A stretch of 38,311 nt of DNA from a virus, in IMG/VR virus record IMGVR_UViG_3300024261_000081, positions 1-38,311 of that record. The stretch is one strand, 5' to 3'. Positions 1-38,311 of the stretch are shown here, piece after piece (the first letter of the stretch is position 1; each line of letters begins with the position of its first letter). A program made the position numbers and the translations under genes. The notes below the pieces were generated by a model, which searched no databases, was not told the origin of the DNA, and saw only the letters and a list, made by a program, of their open reading frames with translations.

Positions 1-143
1 TGCCACCCGCCAACATCAAAGACTTCATCAAGTCTGTTCATTACCTGACGCGCATCAATGTAAACCAACTCTTTACCACCCGCACCTTTACGCCAGTGAT
101 GACTTGCAAAAGGTTTCTTTAACTCTATCTGTATATGTTTCAT
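1..143 (-). CDS. Rad52-family annealing protein, 5' fragment cut by the window edge
   Basis: This is the first 47 codons of the gene seen complete at 37852-38304, starting at ATG 141-143 and running off the left end. On the circular genome it continues at 38161. The start overlaps the stop of the upstream 69-aa gene as ATGA (140-143), so translation is probably coupled. It is the same gene as the right-hand copy, not a second gene. Confidence 0.9.
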   Translation of the reverse strand, partial: MKHIQIELKKPFASHHWRKGAGGKELVYIDARQVMNRLDEVFDVGGW

Positions 144-150
144 TCTTTTT
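1..150. repeat. Left copy of 150-bp terminal redundancy
   Basis: Positions 1-150 match 38162-38311 at 149 of 150 bases; the only difference is T at 24 versus C at 38185. The copies lie inside coding sequence (5' end of the Rad52-like gene), and the difference is silent (GAA versus GAG at Glu40). This shows a circular genome assembled with overlapping ends, or a short direct terminal repeat. Being inside a gene favours circular closure, while the mismatch argues against a trivial k-mer overlap and suggests population variation or an error. Confidence 0.93.
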
Positions 151-5709: not shown

Positions 5710-6033
5710 TTATGGCGCGTAATCCATTGTGACGGTTTCGACTATTCGGGTTGTAAACTCATTCCCGCTGTAATCACAAACAACATATTCAGGCTCGTTA
5801 CCGTAGACAAAATATATTCTGCCCTCTGAATGGTCTCCGTCGAATATGGTTAATGTATCCCCTTCATCGGTTTGGCACATTTCGTCTAGTATTCTTTTTA
5901 TATCGTCTGACTTGCTAAGAACGGTTTCCTCGCCGTCAAAAACTGATATTTTATATCCCTTACCGCTAGGGGATTTCTCACTCAATACCGCATTAATGAT
6001 GTTTGATGCTATTTCTTTTTCGATTGGATGCAT
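5710..6033 (-). CDS. Hypothetical 107-aa acidic protein, first of its operon
   Basis: An acidic 107-aa protein with a helical N-terminus and a strand-rich second half. No domain recognised. An AAAGGAAATAAAG ribosome-binding site precedes the ATG. It is the first leftward gene after the divergent control region 6034-6487 and so the one most directly exposed to that region's regulation. Confidence 0.65.
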   Translation of the reverse strand: MHPIEKEIASNIINAVLSEKSPSGKGYKISVFDGEETVLSKSDDIKRILDEMCQTDEGDTLTIFDGDHSEGRIYFVYGNEPEYVVCDYSGNEFTTRIVETVTMDYAP

Positions 6034-6195
6034 TTTCTTTATTTCCTTTTGTTTAGGTATTCCGATTAGATCAGATAACTATCAGACAGTAAATCATAAA
6101 GATTTTATAGGGGCATAAACTAAGTTAATGGGTAGGTGTCTTGTGTTCTGCACATTGTTGACACGCGCACGCACATTGCCCCAAGCAATCAGATT

Positions 6196-6215
6196 TATTT
6201 ATACCCCCATAAATA
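6196..6215. promoter_or_regulatory. Operator-like palindrome
   Basis: TATTTAT (6196-6202) and its exact complement ATAAATA (6209-6215) are separated by ACCCCC. The arms are AT-only around a C-run, and no T-run follows in either direction, so it looks like a dimeric-regulator site more than a terminator. The binding protein is unknown. Confidence 0.45.
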
Positions 6216-6262
6216 GATTCTATTAGACATCGGGTAACGGATATGCTAGCCAGTTCAAATGC

Positions 6263-6285
6263 AAATGATAATGATTCGCATTTAG
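6263..6285. promoter_or_regulatory. Fur-box-like site 1
   Basis: GATAATGATTCGCATT lies within an almost perfect 21-bp palindrome (6263-6283). Against the 19-bp Fur consensus GATAATGATAATCATTATC, positions 6267-6285 match at 13 of 19. In the 7-1-7 description 12 of 14 positions match. It lies upstream of the virion genes and 36 bp from a second copy. Confidence 0.6.
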
Positions 6286-6298
6286 CCAGGGGCAATCT

Positions 6299-6321
6299 TA
6301 ATGAGAATGATTCGTATTCGC
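6299..6321. promoter_or_regulatory. Fur-box-like site 2
   Basis: GAGAATGATTCGTATT repeats the core of site 1, with AATGATTCG unchanged, exactly 36 bp downstream. It matches the 19-bp Fur consensus at 12 of 19 positions and the 7-1-7 form at 10 of 14. It lies about 40 bp upstream of the AT-rich candidate -10 at 6359. Confidence 0.52.
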
Positions 6322-6412
6322 ACCCCCCCGACCCCTTTTTTTTGTATTGATGTTAATATATATTCTCTCCACTCACCATCGGGGTAAAATACCCTCTATA
6401 AGCGCATTCTAA

Positions 6413-6418
6413 TATAAT
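6413..6418 (+). promoter_or_regulatory. Candidate -10 for the virion operon
   Basis: A perfect TATAAT, 70 nt before the first virion gene. No -35 resembling TTGACA occurs at 16-18 nt upstream, so it is only a candidate. TATATT at 6359-6364 is an alternative. Confidence 0.3.
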
Positions 6419-6487
6419 TAGTACCCTAGCATACCTTAACCCCTTAACGACCCGCTACGAGCCTTACAGAGAGCCTGATAAAGAATT

Positions 6488-7474
6488 ATGTCATTACCAT
6501 ACTTAATTAAACATATACTCTCAAATCCTATAAACCCGCATAAGAATGTAGATGATGAGGTTCAAAGAATAGGAAATGAATACCCTTATAAGTTAACAGA
6601 GCAAGGGCAAATTGGTGCTTTGGGACACGCCTATGGTACGGCGTTAGTGGGCGAAGGGTTTATGAATCTTAAAGAAGATAGGGATAAATATCCAAGCAAT
6701 TACGATAGACATAATAATTCTGTTTCAGATAGATTTTTTAGGGATTTAAAAAAATCAAACCCTCCCAGTTTTATGGGGTTTGGATTAACTTTTCCCGATA
6801 AAATAAATAAAGCAAAAAGAAGCATATTTGGTATGCAGGATACAAAAAATCCGCATCCCTTACCTTATCATTGGGATGTTAAATACAACAACGATATATC
6901 ACCACCCCCTATACCTAATTTTCTTAAAGAGGAAGACCCTGTAAATTGGTATGATAACATACACTCATTTCTTTCTCCTCAAACAAGTTCTGGAATTATT
7001 GATTACCAACCAGATAATCAACAACAAAACCAACAACAAAGCCAACAGCCAATTGCACCACAAATACCTAATACACCTGTTAGCCCCAATCCTCACATAG
7101 ACCCTCCATTAGTTCCTGACGAAATTATTATTCCAGTACCAGATACAAAAGAAACATCTGGGCCTTGGTATGGGGGAGGTGGTGGTTACTTTGTTAGGTC
7201 AAATGCGGCTTACAATGATGCGGGAGAGCGCGTATATCATCCACTAGGAGGTTACTGGCAGTATGATGGTAATCACCCAAATATAAAAGCCGCAAATGAA
7301 GAGGCAAGAAATTGGACTAATACAGGTGTATACAGAACACAAGAATATACTTATGATGGGATTCCATTAACTTTAGACCCTGAAGCAAATTCTGGTCAAG
7401 GAGCATATGTGCAACCAGAGGGTTCTTACAATGGTTATTCTAATTATGATGCGTATCTAGCAAACACAAAATGA
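6488..7474 (+). CDS. Orphan Pro/Gln-rich protein before the terminase
   Basis: A 328-aa protein of unknown function. The N-terminal half is globular-looking. A low-complexity Gln/Pro linker follows (about residues 175-220), and then a Gly/Tyr-rich C-terminal part ending G-Y-S-N-Y-D-A-Y-L-A. It has no membrane segment. Only a weak ribosome-binding site is visible. The stop overlaps the small terminase ATG (ATGA). It could be a minor virion or packaging accessory protein. The C-terminal style recurs in the 152-aa protein at 11234. Confidence 0.7.
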   Translation: MSLPYLIKHILSNPINPHKNVDDEVQRIGNEYPYKLTEQGQIGALGHAYGTALVGEGFMNLKEDRDKYPSNYDRHNNSVSDRFFRDLKKSNPPSFMGFGLTFPDKINKAKRSIFGMQDTKNPHPLPYHWDVKYNNDISPPPIPNFLKEEDPVNWYDNIHSFLSPQTSSGIIDYQPDNQQQNQQQSQQPIAPQIPNTPVSPNPHIDPPLVPDEIIIPVPDTKETSGPWYGGGGGYFVRSNAAYNDAGERVYHPLGGYWQYDGNHPNIKAANEEARNWTNTGVYRTQEYTYDGIPLTLDPEANSGQGAYVQPEGSYNGYSNYDAYLANTK

Positions 7475-7845
7475 AAACAGATAAACAAGAAATATTTATA
7501 GACCAATACTGTATGCATGGTAATGCGGCTAAAGCCGCTGAGATGGCAGGTTATTCGCATCCCAAGCAAAGGGGCTATGAATTAAAGAACCAGTTTACCT
7601 CAGAGATTGAGGCCAGAACCAGAAAATTAATTAAGGATGCTGTCCCTGCCGCACTGCTTGTCCTACAAAATCTAGCACAAAACGCAGAAAGTGAGTCTGT
7701 AAAATTGGGGGCGGTAAAAGATATCCTTGACAGGGCAGGGCTTAAGCCTACAGACAAAATAGAGCAGACCGTCACCAGTGTAGAGGGTAAGTCCACAGAA
7801 GAGTTACAGCAGGAACTGGAGTCCCTTATAGGGCCATTAAATTAG
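7471..7845 (+). CDS. terS: Terminase small subunit
   Basis: A 124-aa protein. The N-terminus (Q-E-I-F-I-D-Q-Y, then G-N-A-A-K-A-A-E-M-A-G-Y-S) has the helix-turn-helix pattern of phage small terminases, followed by helices and an acidic C-terminus. It recognises phage DNA and hands it to the large subunit. The start overlaps the upstream stop (ATGA), and the stop overlaps the GTG of the large subunit (TAGTG). Confidence 0.85.
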   Translation: MKTDKQEIFIDQYCMHGNAAKAAEMAGYSHPKQRGYELKNQFTSEIEARTRKLIKDAVPAALLVLQNLAQNAESESVKLGAVKDILDRAGLKPTDKIEQTVTSVEGKSTEELQQELESLIGPLN

Positions 7846-9290
7846 TGGATGTAGAAAAAGCAGTAGAACTAGCAAAGGAGTTAAAGAAACGACAGAGATT
7901 TGAGAAGATATCCTTCTATGATCCCTATCCGTATCAACTAGACTTCCACGCCACAGGGTTTGAACATAACCAACGCTTATTGATGGCGGCTAACCGAATA
8001 GGTAAATCTTATTGTGGTGCGGCTGAGATGTCCTATCACCTAACAGGATTGTACCCTGAGTGGTGGAAAGGTAAAAAGTTTTACAAGCCTATTACGGCTT
8101 GGGCAGGTGGTGTCTCTAACGAAACCACTAGAGACATTGTACAAGCAGAACTATTGGGTTCCCCCGATGACCCTGAAGCCTTTGGCTCTGGCGCGATTCC
8201 TAAAGAAACTATAATAAAAACGGAACGCAAACCCGGAGTGCCAAACGCCAAGTCCGTAGCATTAATACGGCATACCTCTGGGGAGAACTCTTCTTTACAC
8301 TTCAAAGCCTACGAGATGGGTGTAGACAAATGGCAGGGACGCTCTGTTGACGTTGTATGGCTAGACGAGGAACCCTCAAGGGAACTCTACTCACAGGCCG
8401 TTACACGAACTCTAGATAGGAAAGGGATGGTCTACATGACATTTACCCCAGAACAGGGAATGACAGAGACTGTAGCCGCCTTTATGAACGACATAAAGAA
8501 AGGGCAAAGTCTTAGCAACGCCACATGGGATGACGCTAGTGAACACGTTAAGAGCCTAAAAGGCAAAGAAGGGCATCTTAACGATGACGTTATGGAACAG
8601 ATTCTGTCTGCTTATTCGCCGCATGAACGAGAAATGCGCCGCTTTGGTAGACCTTCTATTGGGTCAGGTCTTATATTTCCAATACCAGAAGAAAAATTAA
8701 TGATTGATCCTATAACTATTGAGGATCATTGGCCTAGAATAGCTGCTATAGATTTTGGTTGGGATCACCCAACCGCAGTAGTTTGGTGTGCCGTAGATAA
8801 TGAAAGTGAGACCTTTTACATTTACGATTGCTACAGGGCATCCAAAGCAAGCCCCGCTGTACACTCTGAGGTTATACGGCAACGACCGTATTTTATTCCC
8901 ATAGCCTACCCACATGACGGAAATCGCAGGGATAGCATGGGAAACCCCGGACTTGCAGAGCAGTACAGGTCTCATGGTTGTAACTTTAGGCTTGAACACT
9001 TTACTAACCCTCCGGGATTAGGGCAGAACAAAGGCTCTAACTCAGTAGAAGAAGGGCTTATGGCTATGCTACAAAGCATGGAAGCAGACAAGTTTAAAGT
9101 ATTTAATACACTACCACATTGGTTTGAAGAGTTTAGAATGTACCATAGAAAGGAAGGTAAAGTGGTCGCCCTTCGTGATGACTTAATGTCAGCAACGCGA
9201 TACGCTTTTCAATCACAAAGATACGCTATTGCAGGGACTGACCCTGAATGGACTAGCGATTTAACTTATAGGAATTACGGAATTGTCTGA
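7845..9290 (+). CDS. terL: Terminase large subunit
   Basis: A 481-aa packaging motor ATPase and nuclease. Walker A is A-A-N-R-I-G-K-S (48-55). Walker B with the catalytic acid is V-D-V-V-W-L-D-E-E-P (168-177). The C-terminal RNase H-like nuclease begins A-A-I-D-F-G-W-D-H-P (300-309), with a later acidic D-D-L-M-S-A. The length is normal for the family. The start is GTG 7845, in overlap with the small subunit stop. The next ATG (7849) is out of frame. Confidence 0.95.
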   Translation: MDVEKAVELAKELKKRQRFEKISFYDPYPYQLDFHATGFEHNQRLLMAANRIGKSYCGAAEMSYHLTGLYPEWWKGKKFYKPITAWAGGVSNETTRDIVQAELLGSPDDPEAFGSGAIPKETIIKTERKPGVPNAKSVALIRHTSGENSSLHFKAYEMGVDKWQGRSVDVVWLDEEPSRELYSQAVTRTLDRKGMVYMTFTPEQGMTETVAAFMNDIKKGQSLSNATWDDASEHVKSLKGKEGHLNDDVMEQILSAYSPHEREMRRFGRPSIGSGLIFPIPEEKLMIDPITIEDHWPRIAAIDFGWDHPTAVVWCAVDNESETFYIYDCYRASKASPAVHSEVIRQRPYFIPIAYPHDGNRRDSMGNPGLAEQYRSHGCNFRLEHFTNPPGLGQNKGSNSVEEGLMAMLQSMEADKFKVFNTLPHWFEEFRMYHRKEGKVVALRDDLMSATRYAFQSQRYAIAGTDPEWTSDLTYRNYGIV

Positions 9291-11229
9291 TATAGAACAA
9301 GAATTAATGTCACGAATTCATCAAGAGATATCTGACTCTCTTGGGTATGATGGCGAAATTTCGTTACAAAGAGAAGAGGCTATTAAGTATTACTATGCTC
9401 TTCCCTTTGGTAATGAGGTTGATGGTCGTAGTCAATACGTTGATTCTACGGTACAAGACACTATAGAGTGGATTAAACCCTCCCTGATGAGGGTGTTTGC
9501 ATCTGGCGATGAAATGGTTAAGTTTACACCGCATGGCCCAGAAGATGTGAGTGCCGCCGCACAAGCAACAGACTATGTTAATTATGTTTTTACTAAAGAT
9601 AATAAAGGTTGGGAGATTCTTTACTCATGGTTCCACGATGCACTTCTTCAAAAGAATGGTATTGTAAAAGTTTGGTGGGATGAATACCCAGAAGAAAAAA
9701 GAGAAGAGTATAGAAATTTGGGAGAGGTTGAATTTGAATATTTAATCTCAGATGATGAGGTAGAAGTTTTAGAGCATACAGAGTATGAAGATAATGGTGT
9801 AATATATCATGATCTTGTAATTAAAAGGTCTAGTTATAACGGTAAAATAAAAATTGAAAACGTACCGCCTGATGAGTTTTTAATATCTAGGGAAGCAAAA
9901 AGTATTCAAGACGCAAGGTTTGTTTGCCACAGAGTAAAGAAAACTGTATCAGAACTTAGACAGATGTATCCTGATGATGATTTTGATGTTGGTGAACTAG
10001 GCGCAGGATATAACGAAGAAGTTTACAATGCAGAACGTCAAGCCAGATATGAGATAGATAACTCATTTGCTTGGGGTAATGGCATGAATGAGTCTGGTGA
10101 AGAAGCGTTAAGAGAATACTGGCTTCACGAATCATTTATACAAACAGACTATGACGATGACGGTATTGCAGAACTAAGAAAAGTTTGCAGTGTAGGCGAC
10201 TATATATTTTCTAACGAAGAAATTGACAAGGTTCCTTTTGTTTCCATTACTCCTTTAAAAATTCCTCATAAATTCTTTGGTATGTCTGTTGCTGATCTTG
10301 TTATGGACTTGCAGTTAATTAAGAGTACGTTAATGCGTAACTTAATGGACAATGCTTATAACCAAAACTTTGGTAGATACGCTGTAATGGAAGGTCAAGC
10401 AAACCTTGATGATTTGCTAACCCAACGTCCGGGCGGTATCGTTAGGGTTAAATCACCCAATGCAGTTATGCCCTTGGCTACTCCTCCTTTACAGCCAGAA
10501 TCATTTCAGATGCTTGGTTATCTTGACGAAGTAAGGGAAGCAAGAACTGGTGTAAATAAAAATACTCAAGGCATTAACGCAGACGCCCTTACAAGTCACA
10601 CAACGGCAACAGCAGTAAATGCAGTAATGACTAACGCTCAGAGCAGGGTTGAGTTGATTGCTCGTCAGTTTGCAGAAACAGGCGTTAAAGAACTTATGTA
10701 CTGTATCTACGAACTTTTAGTTAAGTACCAAGATAAAGAAAGAGTTGTTATGTTAAGAAACGAGTGGGTTCCTATTAGACCAGATATGTGGTCAGATAAA
10801 ATGGACTGCACTGTGTCTGTCGCTCTTGGTAATGGATCAAAGAATGAGCAAATGCAACATCTTTCCCAGATGTTACAGTTTGCTTCAGAATCCATGCGTG
10901 GTGGATTACCTATCGTAACCGTAGACAATATGTACAATTTAGGAGCGGCTTTAATTAAAGCAATGGGTTATCAGAATGTTGATGACTACTTAACTAAACC
11001 ACCGCCTCAACAACCAGAACAACAAAATCCTGAAGCGCAAATGAAAGCGCAACAAGATCAAATGGAAATGCAACTTAAACAAAAAGAGTTAGAAATAAAA
11101 GCCGCTGACGTGCAAGTTAAAATGGCTAAGATTCAACAAGACGCACAAGAAGCGGCAGTTGACGCTCAGTTAAAAGCGGCAGAACTTGCTCTTGAAAGAG
11201 ATCAAGAAAGATCAGTATTAATAGGATAA
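9283..11229 (+). CDS. Portal protein (P22-like head-tail connector)
   Basis: A 648-aa protein following the large terminase, with an 8-nt overlap and a TTG start at 9283. The N-terminal Y-V-D-S-T-V-Q-D-T-I-E-W-I-K-P segment, the D-D-D-G-I-A-E-L repeat-like region, and a long Gln/Lys/Ala-rich helical C-terminal tail (from about residue 570) are typical of P22-type portals. It forms the dodecameric ring through which DNA enters and leaves the head. Confidence 0.9.
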   Translation: MSDIEQELMSRIHQEISDSLGYDGEISLQREEAIKYYYALPFGNEVDGRSQYVDSTVQDTIEWIKPSLMRVFASGDEMVKFTPHGPEDVSAAAQATDYVNYVFTKDNKGWEILYSWFHDALLQKNGIVKVWWDEYPEEKREEYRNLGEVEFEYLISDDEVEVLEHTEYEDNGVIYHDLVIKRSSYNGKIKIENVPPDEFLISREAKSIQDARFVCHRVKKTVSELRQMYPDDDFDVGELGAGYNEEVYNAERQARYEIDNSFAWGNGMNESGEEALREYWLHESFIQTDYDDDGIAELRKVCSVGDYIFSNEEIDKVPFVSITPLKIPHKFFGMSVADLVMDLQLIKSTLMRNLMDNAYNQNFGRYAVMEGQANLDDLLTQRPGGIVRVKSPNAVMPLATPPLQPESFQMLGYLDEVREARTGVNKNTQGINADALTSHTTATAVNAVMTNAQSRVELIARQFAETGVKELMYCIYELLVKYQDKERVVMLRNEWVPIRPDMWSDKMDCTVSVALGNGSKNEQMQHLSQMLQFASESMRGGLPIVTVDNMYNLGAALIKAMGYQNVDDYLTKPPPQQPEQQNPEAQMKAQQDQMEMQLKQKELEIKAADVQVKMAKIQQDAQEAAVDAQLKAAELALERDQERSVLIG

Positions 11230-32284: not shown

Positions 32285-32456
32285 CGTAAGTGTCTAGGTT
32301 CATACCTTCTTTACGCAAGAACACTTGCTCCCAAGTTCTCCATATGTTATCACTGCACTGAACTGTTTCGTGTTGGTGAACCCAACACCATCTGGCAAAG
32401 TAATATCTTCTATCCTCTGCCCATTTTTCTTCTTGCTCTTTAGATGGGTTTAACAT
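32190..32456 (-). CDS. Hypothetical 88-aa protein, last gene of the leftward block
   Basis: An 88-aa charged protein with a Trp-rich centre (R-R-Y-Y-F-A-R-W-C-W-V-H) and a Gln/Lys/Glu-rich helical C-terminus. The start overlaps the end of the Mom-like gene by 17 nt. Its final 95 nt are antisense to the last virion gene. No domain recognised. Confidence 0.6.
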   Translation of the reverse strand: MLNPSKEQEEKWAEDRRYYFARWCWVHQHETVQCSDNIWRTWEQVFLRKEGMNLDTYAKMKQAEQKQRLHEEKNETHSKQEEDQMTLL

Positions 32457-33057
32457 TCTTAGGGTACGGTGAAACTTTATATCTTAATGCTTTTCTTGCT
32501 AACTTTTTAAATCTTTTGTCGCCGACAAAATGTACATAGCGATGCTTGATTGATCTAAGTCTATAGCCAACATCGTCACCATGCTCCTCCTCCATTTGTT
32601 TGTAAGTCTTACCTCTGAATGTAGTGTGATGCAGGTGCGGTCTTGACTTTAAATATATTTCTTTTATAGGTTTTGTTTGACCAGTATAGGTAAAGTTAGT
32701 TGCTTGATAGACTATGCCTAAGTGATCCTGCGCTCCGTCTGCATAACTTACTACAATTTTATTGCCTAACTTCTTAAGGGTTTGTCCTACTAACTGGGAT
32801 GCCTCGTTTTTTCTATTGTACTTTAGAACTAATCTATTTAATTCTATAACATCTTTTTTAAACTCTTCGCCGCATACACCCTTGAGCAATGTATGTGATG
32901 GCGGTATACCGTAAGTACATACTCCAACTAACTCTCCATCCTTAAACATACCAAAAGACTTTTGTATTGACGGCATCCTATGAGCATAATGAACGTCAAG
33001 TATTAAAGGCTTAGTGTCTTGATAGTTAATCTGTTCAATTGTGTAGCCTGATTCCAT
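32440..33057 (-). CDS. mom: Mom-like DNA modification protein (GNAT-fold)
   Basis: 205 aa from ATG 33057. A further in-frame ATG at 33165 would lie deep inside the upstream nuclease gene. Conserved stretches of the phage Mom family are visible: H-Y-A-H-R-M-P-S-I-Q-K-S-F-G-M-F-K-D-G-E (about 18-37), C-T-Y-G-I-P-P-S (about 42-49), V-I-E-L-N-R-L-V-L (about 65-73), V-V-S-Y-A-D (about 97-102) and a basic end. The family converts adenine in phage DNA to a bulky N6 derivative that blocks restriction enzymes. Mu's Com activator is not seen. The neighbouring gene is a PD-(D/E)XK nuclease. Confidence 0.82.
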   Translation of the reverse strand: MESGYTIEQINYQDTKPLILDVHYAHRMPSIQKSFGMFKDGELVGVCTYGIPPSHTLLKGVCGEEFKKDVIELNRLVLKYNRKNEASQLVGQTLKKLGNKIVVSYADGAQDHLGIVYQATNFTYTGQTKPIKEIYLKSRPHLHHTTFRGKTYKQMEEEHGDDVGYRLRSIKHRYVHFVGDKRFKKLARKALRYKVSPYPKNVKPI

Positions 33058-33523
33058 CAGTGTTGACTGTTCCGCAGGAATAATCTCGAAGATATTGTGT
33101 TGGTATTTTTGCAAACAAATCATCTCTTCCATTCCTTGTTTTAAGTTTAAAGAAGTCATCCTCATCTACACTGCATTTTAACTTAAGATCATTGTAAATG
33201 TCAACTGGATTTACTAAAATAAAATCATCGTCAGTTTCAAATGCAATCATCCTGTCAACCTTTGTTGGAACACCCCACCCAATATTACCTGCTACATTTT
33301 TAAACTCGTAATAGTGTATTGTAGAATCAACATTTGCATCTTTTCTGTTATTTTTTTTCTTACCTTTTACGTCAATCTTTCCTTCCTTGCAGAGTATATC
33401 CCAGTGTTCATTCCTATCTTCTGATCTTGTTGCTCGTCTGATAAAAGAATCCCCAATCATTTCTATGAATTTGTCTTCAGTAATAAGACCTTTCTCATAA
33501 AAACTTTGCCATTTATTTTTCAT
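33035..33523 (-). CDS. PD-(D/E)XK nuclease-like protein next to the Mom-like gene
   Basis: A 162-aa protein. E39-H-W-D42 followed by K-I-D51-V-K53-G-K-K-K matches the D-x(n)-(D/E)-x-K core of PD-(D/E)XK enzymes; a Tyr/Glu/Phe strand and an N-x-G-W-G-V-P-T segment follow. It could be a Holliday-junction resolvase-like enzyme or a nuclease against host DNA. It overlaps the Mom-like gene by 23 nt, so the two are probably co-translated. Confidence 0.65.
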   Translation of the reverse strand: MKNKWQSFYEKGLITEDKFIEMIGDSFIRRATRSEDRNEHWDILCKEGKIDVKGKKKNNRKDANVDSTIHYYEFKNVAGNIGWGVPTKVDRMIAFETDDDFILVNPVDIYNDLKLKCSVDEDDFFKLKTRNGRDDLFAKIPTQYLRDYSCGTVNTDGIRLHN

Positions 33524-35940: not shown

Positions 35941-36230
35941 CATCTAAACCCTACTGGATTAGAATCCCAATCATGGTTAGGTGCAAGTTCAGGGCATATC
36001 CCACCCATTTCTTCCCAATCATCATCGTCGTCATCGTCGTCATCGTCGTCATCCTCTATACTTTCCCACCTGTCTTTTTGCATCTCATCACGTTCATCTT
36101 CTATATCTTTTTTAAAATCTTCTAACCTTTTCAAGGTTATGTTTTGTTTATCAATGCGAAAGGAATCAATAATATCATTAATTTCATTTGCATAATAATC
36201 AAGCGTCTCTTCAAACCCTTTAGTATTCAT
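35940..36230 (-). CDS. Hypothetical protein with 12-Asp tract (96 aa)
   Basis: Start set at ATG 36230, which overlaps the ribonucleotide reductase stop (ATGA); a longer frame to 36254 lies inside that gene. The N-terminal part is helical and charged, and a run of 12 Asp (codons 36018-36053, a GAT/GAC repeat) lies near residue 70, followed by W-E-E-M-G-G-I. The acidic tract could mimic DNA or bind basic proteins. No family recognised. Confidence 0.6.
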   Translation of the reverse strand: MNTKGFEETLDYYANEINDIIDSFRIDKQNITLKRLEDFKKDIEDERDEMQKDRWESIEDDDDDDDDDDDDWEEMGGICPELAPNHDWDSNPVGFR

Positions 36231-37855
36231 ATTCCACACACTCCTGATAAGCATTGCTCTTCTGAATTATCCTCGTAGATCACACCACGTTTAGCGTTAG
36301 CCTCCTCATAAGGTACAGATGTTATAGGTTGCCCACCCCTAGCGCTATCTGGGTACACTGTTAAACCTCTTAACCCACTGGCGTAATCACTAATGATTTT
36401 GGCAAACGACTTTATCTTATCCTCATTGTTAAGATCACTTCCCCATGCGGGAAGGTTTAGCGTGGAACTAATAGCGTGGTCTACATACTTCTGCAACCCA
36501 TGTTGAAATTTAATTCTACGTTCTGGATCAGCGGCAAGATCAACAGCAGATTCAATTTTATCTGGGTCAATACCAGAATCAATTAATCCTTGCGCTGTAC
36601 CGTCAACGACAAACTGATGTTTCCATTTTGTTCCATCCGAAAGGTAACGTCTGCGGTATGCGACTGCGTATATTGGTTCCACCCCAGAAGTAGTCCCTGC
36701 GAGGATAGAGATTGTTCCTGTTGGAGCAATTGCTCTGTAGCCTTTAGGACGGTTGAGAAAAAGTCTGTCGCAGTGTTCGTCTGCCGCTTTTTTACTTTCT
36801 GTTTCATAAACTTTCATCCATTGTTTCAGTTCATCTACCATCTCATATTTGTATCCACGTTTCAGCAACCACTCGTGCATACCCATCAACCCTAAACCAA
36901 TACGACTATTCTTCTGCCTTGTCTCGCTTACTTTTTCGTAGGGAACTTGCGCCCTGATAAGCCCACAAACAAGGAACTTACTAGCAACAGTAACAACATC
37001 CCGAAACTCATCAATGCTGTCAATGTTAGCCATATTAATAGACCCAAGATTACAAACGTCGCTATCATCTTCGCTAGTAATTTCTGTGCAAGCGTTACGA
37101 AGAGTTTCATTTTGTTTGTCTCCAAAATTAAATGAGAATCCGGGCTCTCCTGTCATCAATGCCTGAGTTACATTCTTTAAAAACGTAGGATCAAGGTGTC
37201 GTTTGTCAGCGTTTAGCCATGCGTCATCGTAATTCAAACTGATGTTCATCATATCCAGAGGAGCATGAGCATTGAAGTCTTTTTCTTTTGCCGATTTTAC
37301 TTCATCACTCCAGTTCTTGATGGTCAAAAAGTCGTGAGAATCTTCATGCTTCCAGTTCATGCAACCATACATAGCACTGCGTCTGCTACCACCCTGCATT
37401 ACGTTGCGTCCAATCTCATTGGTTGCAAGTAAGAAAGGAATCGGCCCACTACTAACGCCACCTGTCTTGGATAGCGTTCTACCTTTAGGTCTAAAGTTTG
37501 TAACATCCATTCCAATACCGCCACCTGTCATCAAACATGACCCTGCACGTTTCCAAAGGTCTGCCCATTCTTCCCTGCTATCTTCCTCTGCTTTAAGCAG
37601 GTAACAATTATTATAGAACCTTGCCTCTCTACCTGCATACCACAAGTAGCGACCTCCGGGCAAGAATTTAAAGTTCGCAATGTCTTGGGCAAGTTTATCC
37701 TGATCTGATTTATCCATCAGATTATTTTTCTTACCATCCATAGTGCCACATACACTGTTGACTACATTGTGCGCCTTGTCACTCCAAGTTTCATACGCAT
37801 TGCTTGCATACTTCTGTTTAAAAATTGTCTCGCCTAGTTCGGTTCTAAATTTCAT
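36227..37855 (-). CDS. nrdJ: Class II (B12-dependent) ribonucleotide reductase
   Basis: A 542-aa single-chain enzyme that makes deoxynucleotides for phage replication. The active-site strand is N254-A-C256-T-E258, with redox cysteines C84 and C268 (C-N-L-G-S-I-N) and a C-terminal C535-x4-C540 that recharges them. P-T-G-T-I-S and T-S-G-V-E-P-I are present. No ATP-cone or small-subunit gene is seen, which fits adenosylcobalamin-dependent class II enzymes. It requires host cobalamin. It is coupled to its downstream neighbour by ATGA and overlaps the Rad52-like gene stop by 4 nt. Confidence 0.93.
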   Translation of the reverse strand: MKFRTELGETIFKQKYASNAYETWSDKAHNVVNSVCGTMDGKKNNLMDKSDQDKLAQDIANFKFLPGGRYLWYAGREARFYNNCYLLKAEEDSREEWADLWKRAGSCLMTGGGIGMDVTNFRPKGRTLSKTGGVSSGPIPFLLATNEIGRNVMQGGSRRSAMYGCMNWKHEDSHDFLTIKNWSDEVKSAKEKDFNAHAPLDMMNISLNYDDAWLNADKRHLDPTFLKNVTQALMTGEPGFSFNFGDKQNETLRNACTEITSEDDSDVCNLGSINMANIDSIDEFRDVVTVASKFLVCGLIRAQVPYEKVSETRQKNSRIGLGLMGMHEWLLKRGYKYEMVDELKQWMKVYETESKKAADEHCDRLFLNRPKGYRAIAPTGTISILAGTTSGVEPIYAVAYRRRYLSDGTKWKHQFVVDGTAQGLIDSGIDPDKIESAVDLAADPERRIKFQHGLQKYVDHAISSTLNLPAWGSDLNNEDKIKSFAKIISDYASGLRGLTVYPDSARGGQPITSVPYEEANAKRGVIYEDNSEEQCLSGVCGI

Positions 37856-38304
37856 AGTGATGCCTCATATTCTTTACGCCATTTCTCAATCTCTTTACCA
37901 TGCCTTTCTTCCATAAGTTTGTCATAACCTTCTGGCGTAGCCCATGATGCAGGGTTTCTGTTTGAATCAAACGCTGAAGGGTAGTACAAGTACCGCCCGA
38001 TACCCCACAATACACCCGCTCGTTTGAGTGCATCACTGATACCGCCCTTGTCACCCTCGATATTAGTGTCACCCGCCCCATCAGATTTAGTAACCCATTT
38101 GTCACCTATAAGGCAAGACAGTTTACAAATCATCCTGCCTCCGATATGCTCGTAGTGCGCCTGCCACCCGCCAACATCAAAGACCTCATCAAGTCTGTTC
38201 ATTACCTGACGCGCATCAATGTAAACCAACTCTTTACCACCCGCACCTTTACGCCAGTGATGACTTGCAAAAGGTTTCTTTAACTCTATCTGTATATGTT
38301 TCAT
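37852..38304 (-). CDS. Rad52-family single-strand annealing protein
   Basis: A 150-aa protein. Y-I-D-A-R-Q-V-M-N-R-L-D-E-V-F (28-42), G-G-W (45-47), K-S-D-G-A-G-D-T (73-80) and G-G-I-S-D-A-L-K-R-A-G-V-L-W-G-I-G-R-Y (87-105) are the core of Rad52/Sak-type annealing proteins. It would anneal single strands exposed by the RecB-like exonuclease. The complete gene ends at 38304; the first 143 nt recur at the left end of the window. It overlaps the ribonucleotide reductase start. Confidence 0.9.
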   Translation of the reverse strand: MKHIQIELKKPFASHHWRKGAGGKELVYIDARQVMNRLDEVFDVGGWQAHYEHIGGRMICKLSCLIGDKWVTKSDGAGDTNIEGDKGGISDALKRAGVLWGIGRYLYYPSAFDSNRNPASWATPEGYDKLMEERHGKEIEKWRKEYEASL

Positions 38305-38311
38305 TCTTTTT
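38162..38311. repeat. Right copy of the terminal redundancy
   Basis: The 150 bases match positions 1-150 apart from C at 38185 (T at 24). The first 143 bases lie in the Rad52-like gene, and the last 7 are upstream of its ATG and inside the 3' end of the 69-aa gene. Confidence 0.93.

Follow-up and report, generated by a model that had tools for sequence, protein, structure and literature searches.

A virus record of 38,311 bases (the window, by which we mean the whole stretch of DNA analysed) carries two tandem sites that are, judged from sequence, very likely sites for the Fur protein of the host. They lie in the gap from which the two gene blocks of the phage diverge, and we tentatively propose, at a little short of even confidence, that they form an upstream hub operator for host Fur. 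The likeness of the sites to bacterial iron operators, their hub position and their all-or-none presence among relatives are established, and binding by Fur is what we infer.

The divergent hub and its two sites

The first and last 150 bases of the window (1-150 and 38162-38311) are 99.3% identical and the gene set recurs, permuted, in a relative of 38,350 bases. The genome is therefore probably closed and complete, though the record is classed as linear. On the circular reading, the leftward block, which encodes a helicase, a Rad52-like protein, ribonucleotide reductase and an exonuclease, extends from 6033 across the record ends to about 32.2 kb; the virion block, read rightward, occupies 6488 to about 32.3 kb. 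This layout makes the 454-bp gap at 6034-6487 the main divergence point, and the sites do lie within it, as the earlier note had stated. The cumulative GC skew has its minimum at 6001-7000, in the hub region. ORFs are mechanical calls, 24 of which were compared with the family library. The features of the region are as follows.

6034-6487, no strand: intergenic hub from which the leftward block and the virion block diverge (ORF list, families, GC skew)
5710-6033, minus strand: first leftward gene, function not assigned (ORF list, family search)
6041-6130, no strand: left promoter-like block kept in close relatives, a putative promoter
6247-6282, plus strand: tandem repeat unit 1, 36 nt (repeat comparison)
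6258-6276, plus strand: overlapping Fur register at a 6-bp offset, 17.7 bits
6264-6282, plus strand: predicted Fur box 1, AATGATAATGATTCGCATT, at the 3' end of unit 1, 23.2 bits
6283-6318, plus strand: tandem repeat unit 2, 36 nt, 75% like unit 1 (repeat comparison)
6300-6318, plus strand: predicted Fur box 2, AATGAGAATGATTCGTATT, at the 3' end of unit 2, 18.8 bits
6359-6420, no strand: right promoter-like block kept in relatives, a putative promoter
6488-7474, plus strand: first rightward gene, no PHROG match (ORF list, family search)
7471-7845, plus strand: terminase small subunit (family search)
7845-9290, plus strand: terminase large subunit (family search)

The earlier note had described two sites sharing a core 36 bp apart. 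The core AATGATTCG indeed recurs at exactly 36 bp, because the sites belong to two head-to-tail 36-nt units. Its counts of 13 and 12 consensus matches were too low: the best match to the consensus GATAATGATAATCATTATC is 14/19 for the first site (6261-6279, and 6267-6285 on the other strand) and 13/19 for the second (6303-6321). The 21-bp palindrome it reported is present, though with 8 of 10 arm pairs "near-perfect" is generous.

The sites were scored with a palindromic Fur matrix of 19 positions, built from 13 Fur-controlled promoters of E. coli K-12 and seeded with a Vibrio consensus given in a passage of PMC7536154. Positions 6264, 6300 and 6258 rank highest in the window, and the next reaches 12.9 bits. 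K-12 sites score 14.6-23.2 bits on this matrix (12.9-22.0 when left out in turn), so that both boxes fall within the range of known sites and the score of box 1 equals that of the best. Fur boxes of the fhuF, fecI, sodA and cirA promoters of E. coli share both site sequence and matrix score with the window. Shuffled sequence, the check proposed in the earlier note, seldom reaches such values: among best scores of dinucleotide shuffles of the whole window, the level of box 1 is attained in 1/500 and that of box 2 in 14/500, and among shuffles of 6034-6487 in 0/2000 and 3/2000, respectively. A strict pattern, AATGANAATNATTNNNATT, has two matches in the window and none in any of 100 dinucleotide-shuffled versions.

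No consensus-type sigma70-like promoter is found at 6000-6500, where 1.8 are expected, in agreement with the earlier note. LexA, DnaA, CRP and FNR boxes are absent from the hub. The DnaA box (TTATNCACA) is absent from the entire window, which speaks against a DnaA-type origin there and sets it apart from the T5-type stop signal discussed below. A T7-promoter-like word in the right block is unsupported, with 1 window match against 1.8 expected at two mismatches, and a PF00940 profile search for a phage RNA polymerase gave no match, its control being equally silent. The leftward block also encodes a Mom-like DNA modification protein and the ribonucleotide reductase large subunit (32440-33165 and 36227-37855, minus strand).

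The window contains no FUR-family gene (the control search was positive in 13 of 14 genomes), as an operator for host Fur would lead one to expect, and any such switch would therefore depend on the host. Because the boxes lie between two conserved promoter-like blocks, an upstream operator is the most likely mode. The metal-loaded host repressor would bind both repeats and, after entry of the phage DNA, Fur docked there would hold back or shape one or both hub promoters. This brake would lift when iron falls, or when replicated genomes outnumber free Fur. Against an operator, no recognisable promoter of the consensus type overlaps the boxes.

The same sequence in bacteria and in related phages

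The 19-mer AATGAKAATGATTCGYATT, which covers both window sites, occurs in at least 119 stretches of bacterial genome contigs. Of the 119 stretches listed, 113 have a next gene of 90 aa or more that starts no farther than 260 bp away. In the best 25 of 46 Pfam families among these matches, the next genes encode TonB plug (40) and TonB receptor barrel (37) domains, followed by PepSY_TM (6), FeoB (4), FeoA (2), TonB (2), HemS (1) and imelysin (1). Among control genes more than 2.2 kb away (92 of 116 listed genes, best 25 of 102 families), the plug and the barrel each occur in 3/92. FecCD (3) and PepSY_TM (2) are also found among the controls, which are thus drawn from iron neighbourhoods and make a strict comparison. 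That the 19-mer precedes TonB receptor, Feo and haem genes far more often than it does control genes indicates that in bacteria it is largely an iron-gene operator, and supports the operator reading of the phage sites.

The placement differs between the two settings. In bacteria this 19-mer lies close to gene starts and is mostly single. The tandem pair of the window stands some 200 bp from the genes on either side: 170-224 bp separate it from the start of the virion block (6488), and the leftward start (6033) is about 230 bp off. No iron gene was recognised adjoining the pair. For the same 19-mer, the median distance to the next start is 198 bp in phages and 43.5 bp in bacteria (Mann-Whitney p 2e-6; computed from loci flanked by called ORFs on both sides, 18 viral and 95 bacterial, minus 5 and 9 convergent ones), which counts against an operator. 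A second box within 100 bp is present in 5/20 viral clusters and 2/111 bacterial loci (Fisher p 9e-4), and convergent gaps make up 5/18 in phages against 9/95 in bacteria (p 0.046). The viral set comprises at least 120 stretches reduced to 117 loci and 25 clusters, 20 of them with enough flank; the bacterial set is the 111 of 119 listed loci with enough flank, unclustered.

Relatives of the phage were taken from IMG/VR as the best 80 of 229 terminase matches. Queries for the right block came from the window, L008 and L025; 29 of the 80 relatives have this block together with 200 bp or more of upstream sequence. A box of 17-23 bits lies upstream of it in eight of the 29 (L011, L012, L014, L015, L025, L026, L048 and L049), which speaks for an operator; the other 21 have nothing above 10 bits there, which tells against one. 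A box is also present in the locus of seven further relatives in which the right block was not matched. Conservation among close relatives, which the earlier note had made a check, is likewise divided: L015 matches the window in having both boxes, L014 has site 1 only, and L011 and L012 have a single box at the site-2 position beneath a different upstream sequence, whereas L008, L016, L017 and L018 have a different, GC-rich sequence in place of the boxes. L008, with no boxes, has a large terminase 98% identical to that of the window; L015, with boxes, has one 96% identical. Box presence is all-or-none, and the Fur module comes and goes in a phage group that can live without it. Among close relatives, the GC-rich stretch takes the place of the Fur boxes within the hub as a swappable module.

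That the sites are not for Fur, and reflect chance, a small coding frame, or some other regulator (of phage or host) that recognises a similar sequence, is very unlikely. The same bases do stay open for about 35 codons from 6243, as the earlier note had warned, and the case for Fur binding is one from sequence. Set against this, the shuffles exclude chance, the bacterial copies lie largely before iron genes, and the frame is not favoured as coding, the sequence upstream of the single box being different in L011 and L012. The matrix and the bacterial iron-gene context lend strong support to the identification of both sites as Fur boxes. The accompanying suggestion, that host iron might control the virion operon, has against it the distance to the gene starts, the lack of an overlapping recognisable sigma70 promoter and the 21 box-free relatives that keep the right block.

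Arrays of similar boxes in other phages

A 111-bp query matches 660 phage records (E at most 10), in many cases through one box. The best matches (E 9e-8) are to two Klebsiella T5-like phages. In T5 itself, the match falls within the stretch annotated as injection stop signal (AY692264 9140-10144), between convergent genes. Whole records were scanned at one mismatch with a reversed-pattern control, and both strands were counted, so that a palindrome counts twice. T5 has 14 matches (control 2), confined to 9552-9709 and the second terminal repeat. Phage phAPEC8 has 8 (control 0), and an array there ends 27 bp before a gene, in keeping with an operator. PcCB7V has 8 (control 0), with five positions of at least 17 bits in the stretch examined, between convergent genes 1.7 kb apart; this placement and that in T5 count against an operator. 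The jumbo phage RCIP0023 has 17 (control 3), several in a 1.8-kb gene-free stretch, vB_Kpn13-P1 has 6 (control 0) and BB1 has 9 (control 2). Plasmids gave four weak matches (E 3).

At least 120 stretches of IMG/VR contain paired boxes, against 12 for a complement-pattern control, which is a further point against a site unrelated to Fur. Similar arrays are found at no fewer than 136 IMG/VR loci in 61 nucleotide clusters. Among 123 loci with distinct flanks, 109 have 2-6 boxes, 12 have one and in 2 the matrix detects none; 116 of the 123 fall outside any ORF of 120 aa or more. Flanking ORFs of at least 100 aa were compared (137 of 205): the genes beside the arrays include terminases, and no iron family appears among the best 25 of 28 Pfam families there, a second family table holding the best 25 of 122. 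Common descent with the T5 array is not favoured, since the stretches between the boxes differ.

These arrays bring in a different possibility, that no phage promoter is controlled and the replicated sites instead titrate host Fur, derepressing the iron regulon to the benefit of infection. We regard such a pure Fur decoy as possible but doubtful for the window. It would fit the two or more boxes at 109 of the 123 distinct loci, the excess of close second boxes in viral over bacterial loci, and the large gaps that hold the arrays (median 541 bp), of which 9/29 are convergent against 25/171 other gaps (raw counts). It would also fit the T5-like loci, where a perfect LexA box (TACTGT-N8-ACAGTA) stands beside the Fur array in 4/4 and DnaA boxes in 3/4. 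Outside these loci, however, LexA sites are not notable (1 near arrays, in L208, and 5 elsewhere), and several relatives have a single box while the window has two at a divergent hub. In Campylobacter, Fur-repressed genes rise during phage infection in iron-replete medium, a rise that a passage of PMC6024767 calls unexplained and for which a decoy, if real, would offer a testable cause in some infections. PAK_P4, cited in the same paper as raising iron-scavenging genes, has no site in a whole-record scan, and neither has PAK_P3 (0 each, controls 0), so that this test of a decoy is negative.

A further proposal is that host Fur bound to the array serves another purpose, helping or stalling DNA entry, replication or genome organisation. 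The position of the T5 array inside the injection stop signal agrees with this, as does a passage of PMC13250531 describing a supposed block by a host component together with repeats, palindromes and DnaA boxes in that signal. The density of DnaA boxes across the 61 cluster representatives is 4.4-fold higher close to arrays, a figure that comes from only 7 loci, while CRP (1.2) and FNR (1.1) boxes are not denser. The GC skew minimum at the window hub is also in line with docking. Since the window has no DnaA box and its close relatives live without the Fur module, we consider a docking role there quite improbable.

The divergent hub favours an operator, and placement across phages favours a decoy or docking role. 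A possible combined scheme, in which an early operator gives way to self-titration after replication, would fit both sets of facts. A broader generalisation would be that phages from T5 to the podovirus-like group of the window, and a jumbo phage, keep arrays for host factors (Fur above all; LexA and DnaA in T5) in gene-free hubs as replication-multiplied decoys. These would reset the host iron programme and, for T5, SOS and replication as well, and the classical injection stop signal of T5 would itself be an array of this kind. We think this somewhat unlikely as a whole.

Precedents, consequences and further repeats

Multicopy plasmids titrate Fur, which is the basis of the Fur titration assay. 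A decoy would act on the same principle, with phage DNA in place of the artificial plasmids. The closest precedent in phage DNA is the Fur box before sitABCD in temperate lambda-type coliphages, described in a passage of PMC6969025; it serves a carried metal-transport operon, whereas the window boxes stand where the phage's own gene blocks diverge. Like the window, the injection stop signal of T5 has Fur-like boxes at a spacing of about 35 bp, several of them, in DNA free of genes. It differs in lying between convergent genes and in its DnaA and LexA boxes; the window has a divergent hub that lacks both kinds of box. PMC13250531 names repeats, palindromes and DnaA boxes in the T5 signal, and the word Fur does not occur in its main text. 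Fur repression of fhuA is linked to T5 resistance in a passage of PMC7553319. None of the literature matches listed describes Fur arrays in virulent phages or in the stop signal of T5, a result that does not extend to the original T5 sequence papers.

If host Fur does bind the arrays, iron status would be a direct input to infection, or the phage would be a titrant of a global regulator; host iron control, or the soaking up of Fur, may then be part of phage biology. For T5, Fur would be a concrete candidate host factor in second-step transfer, a process that a passage of PMC13250531 calls poorly understood.

Two of the arrays are large. Four boxes follow one another at exact 28-bp steps in L347 (14062-14133), and six fall within about 190 bp in L229 (270-463). 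In the stop-signal region of the T5-like loci, the LexA boxes lie at L004:2672-2691, L001:3189, L005:3304 and L007:3267. The T5-like gene-free regions contain numerous copies of a unit like TCGGATTTGCACA (L001:2730-2950, L005:2750-3000, L007:2740-2970), and RCIP0023 (L369:1200-2000) repeats ACAGTACTG near its Fur boxes.
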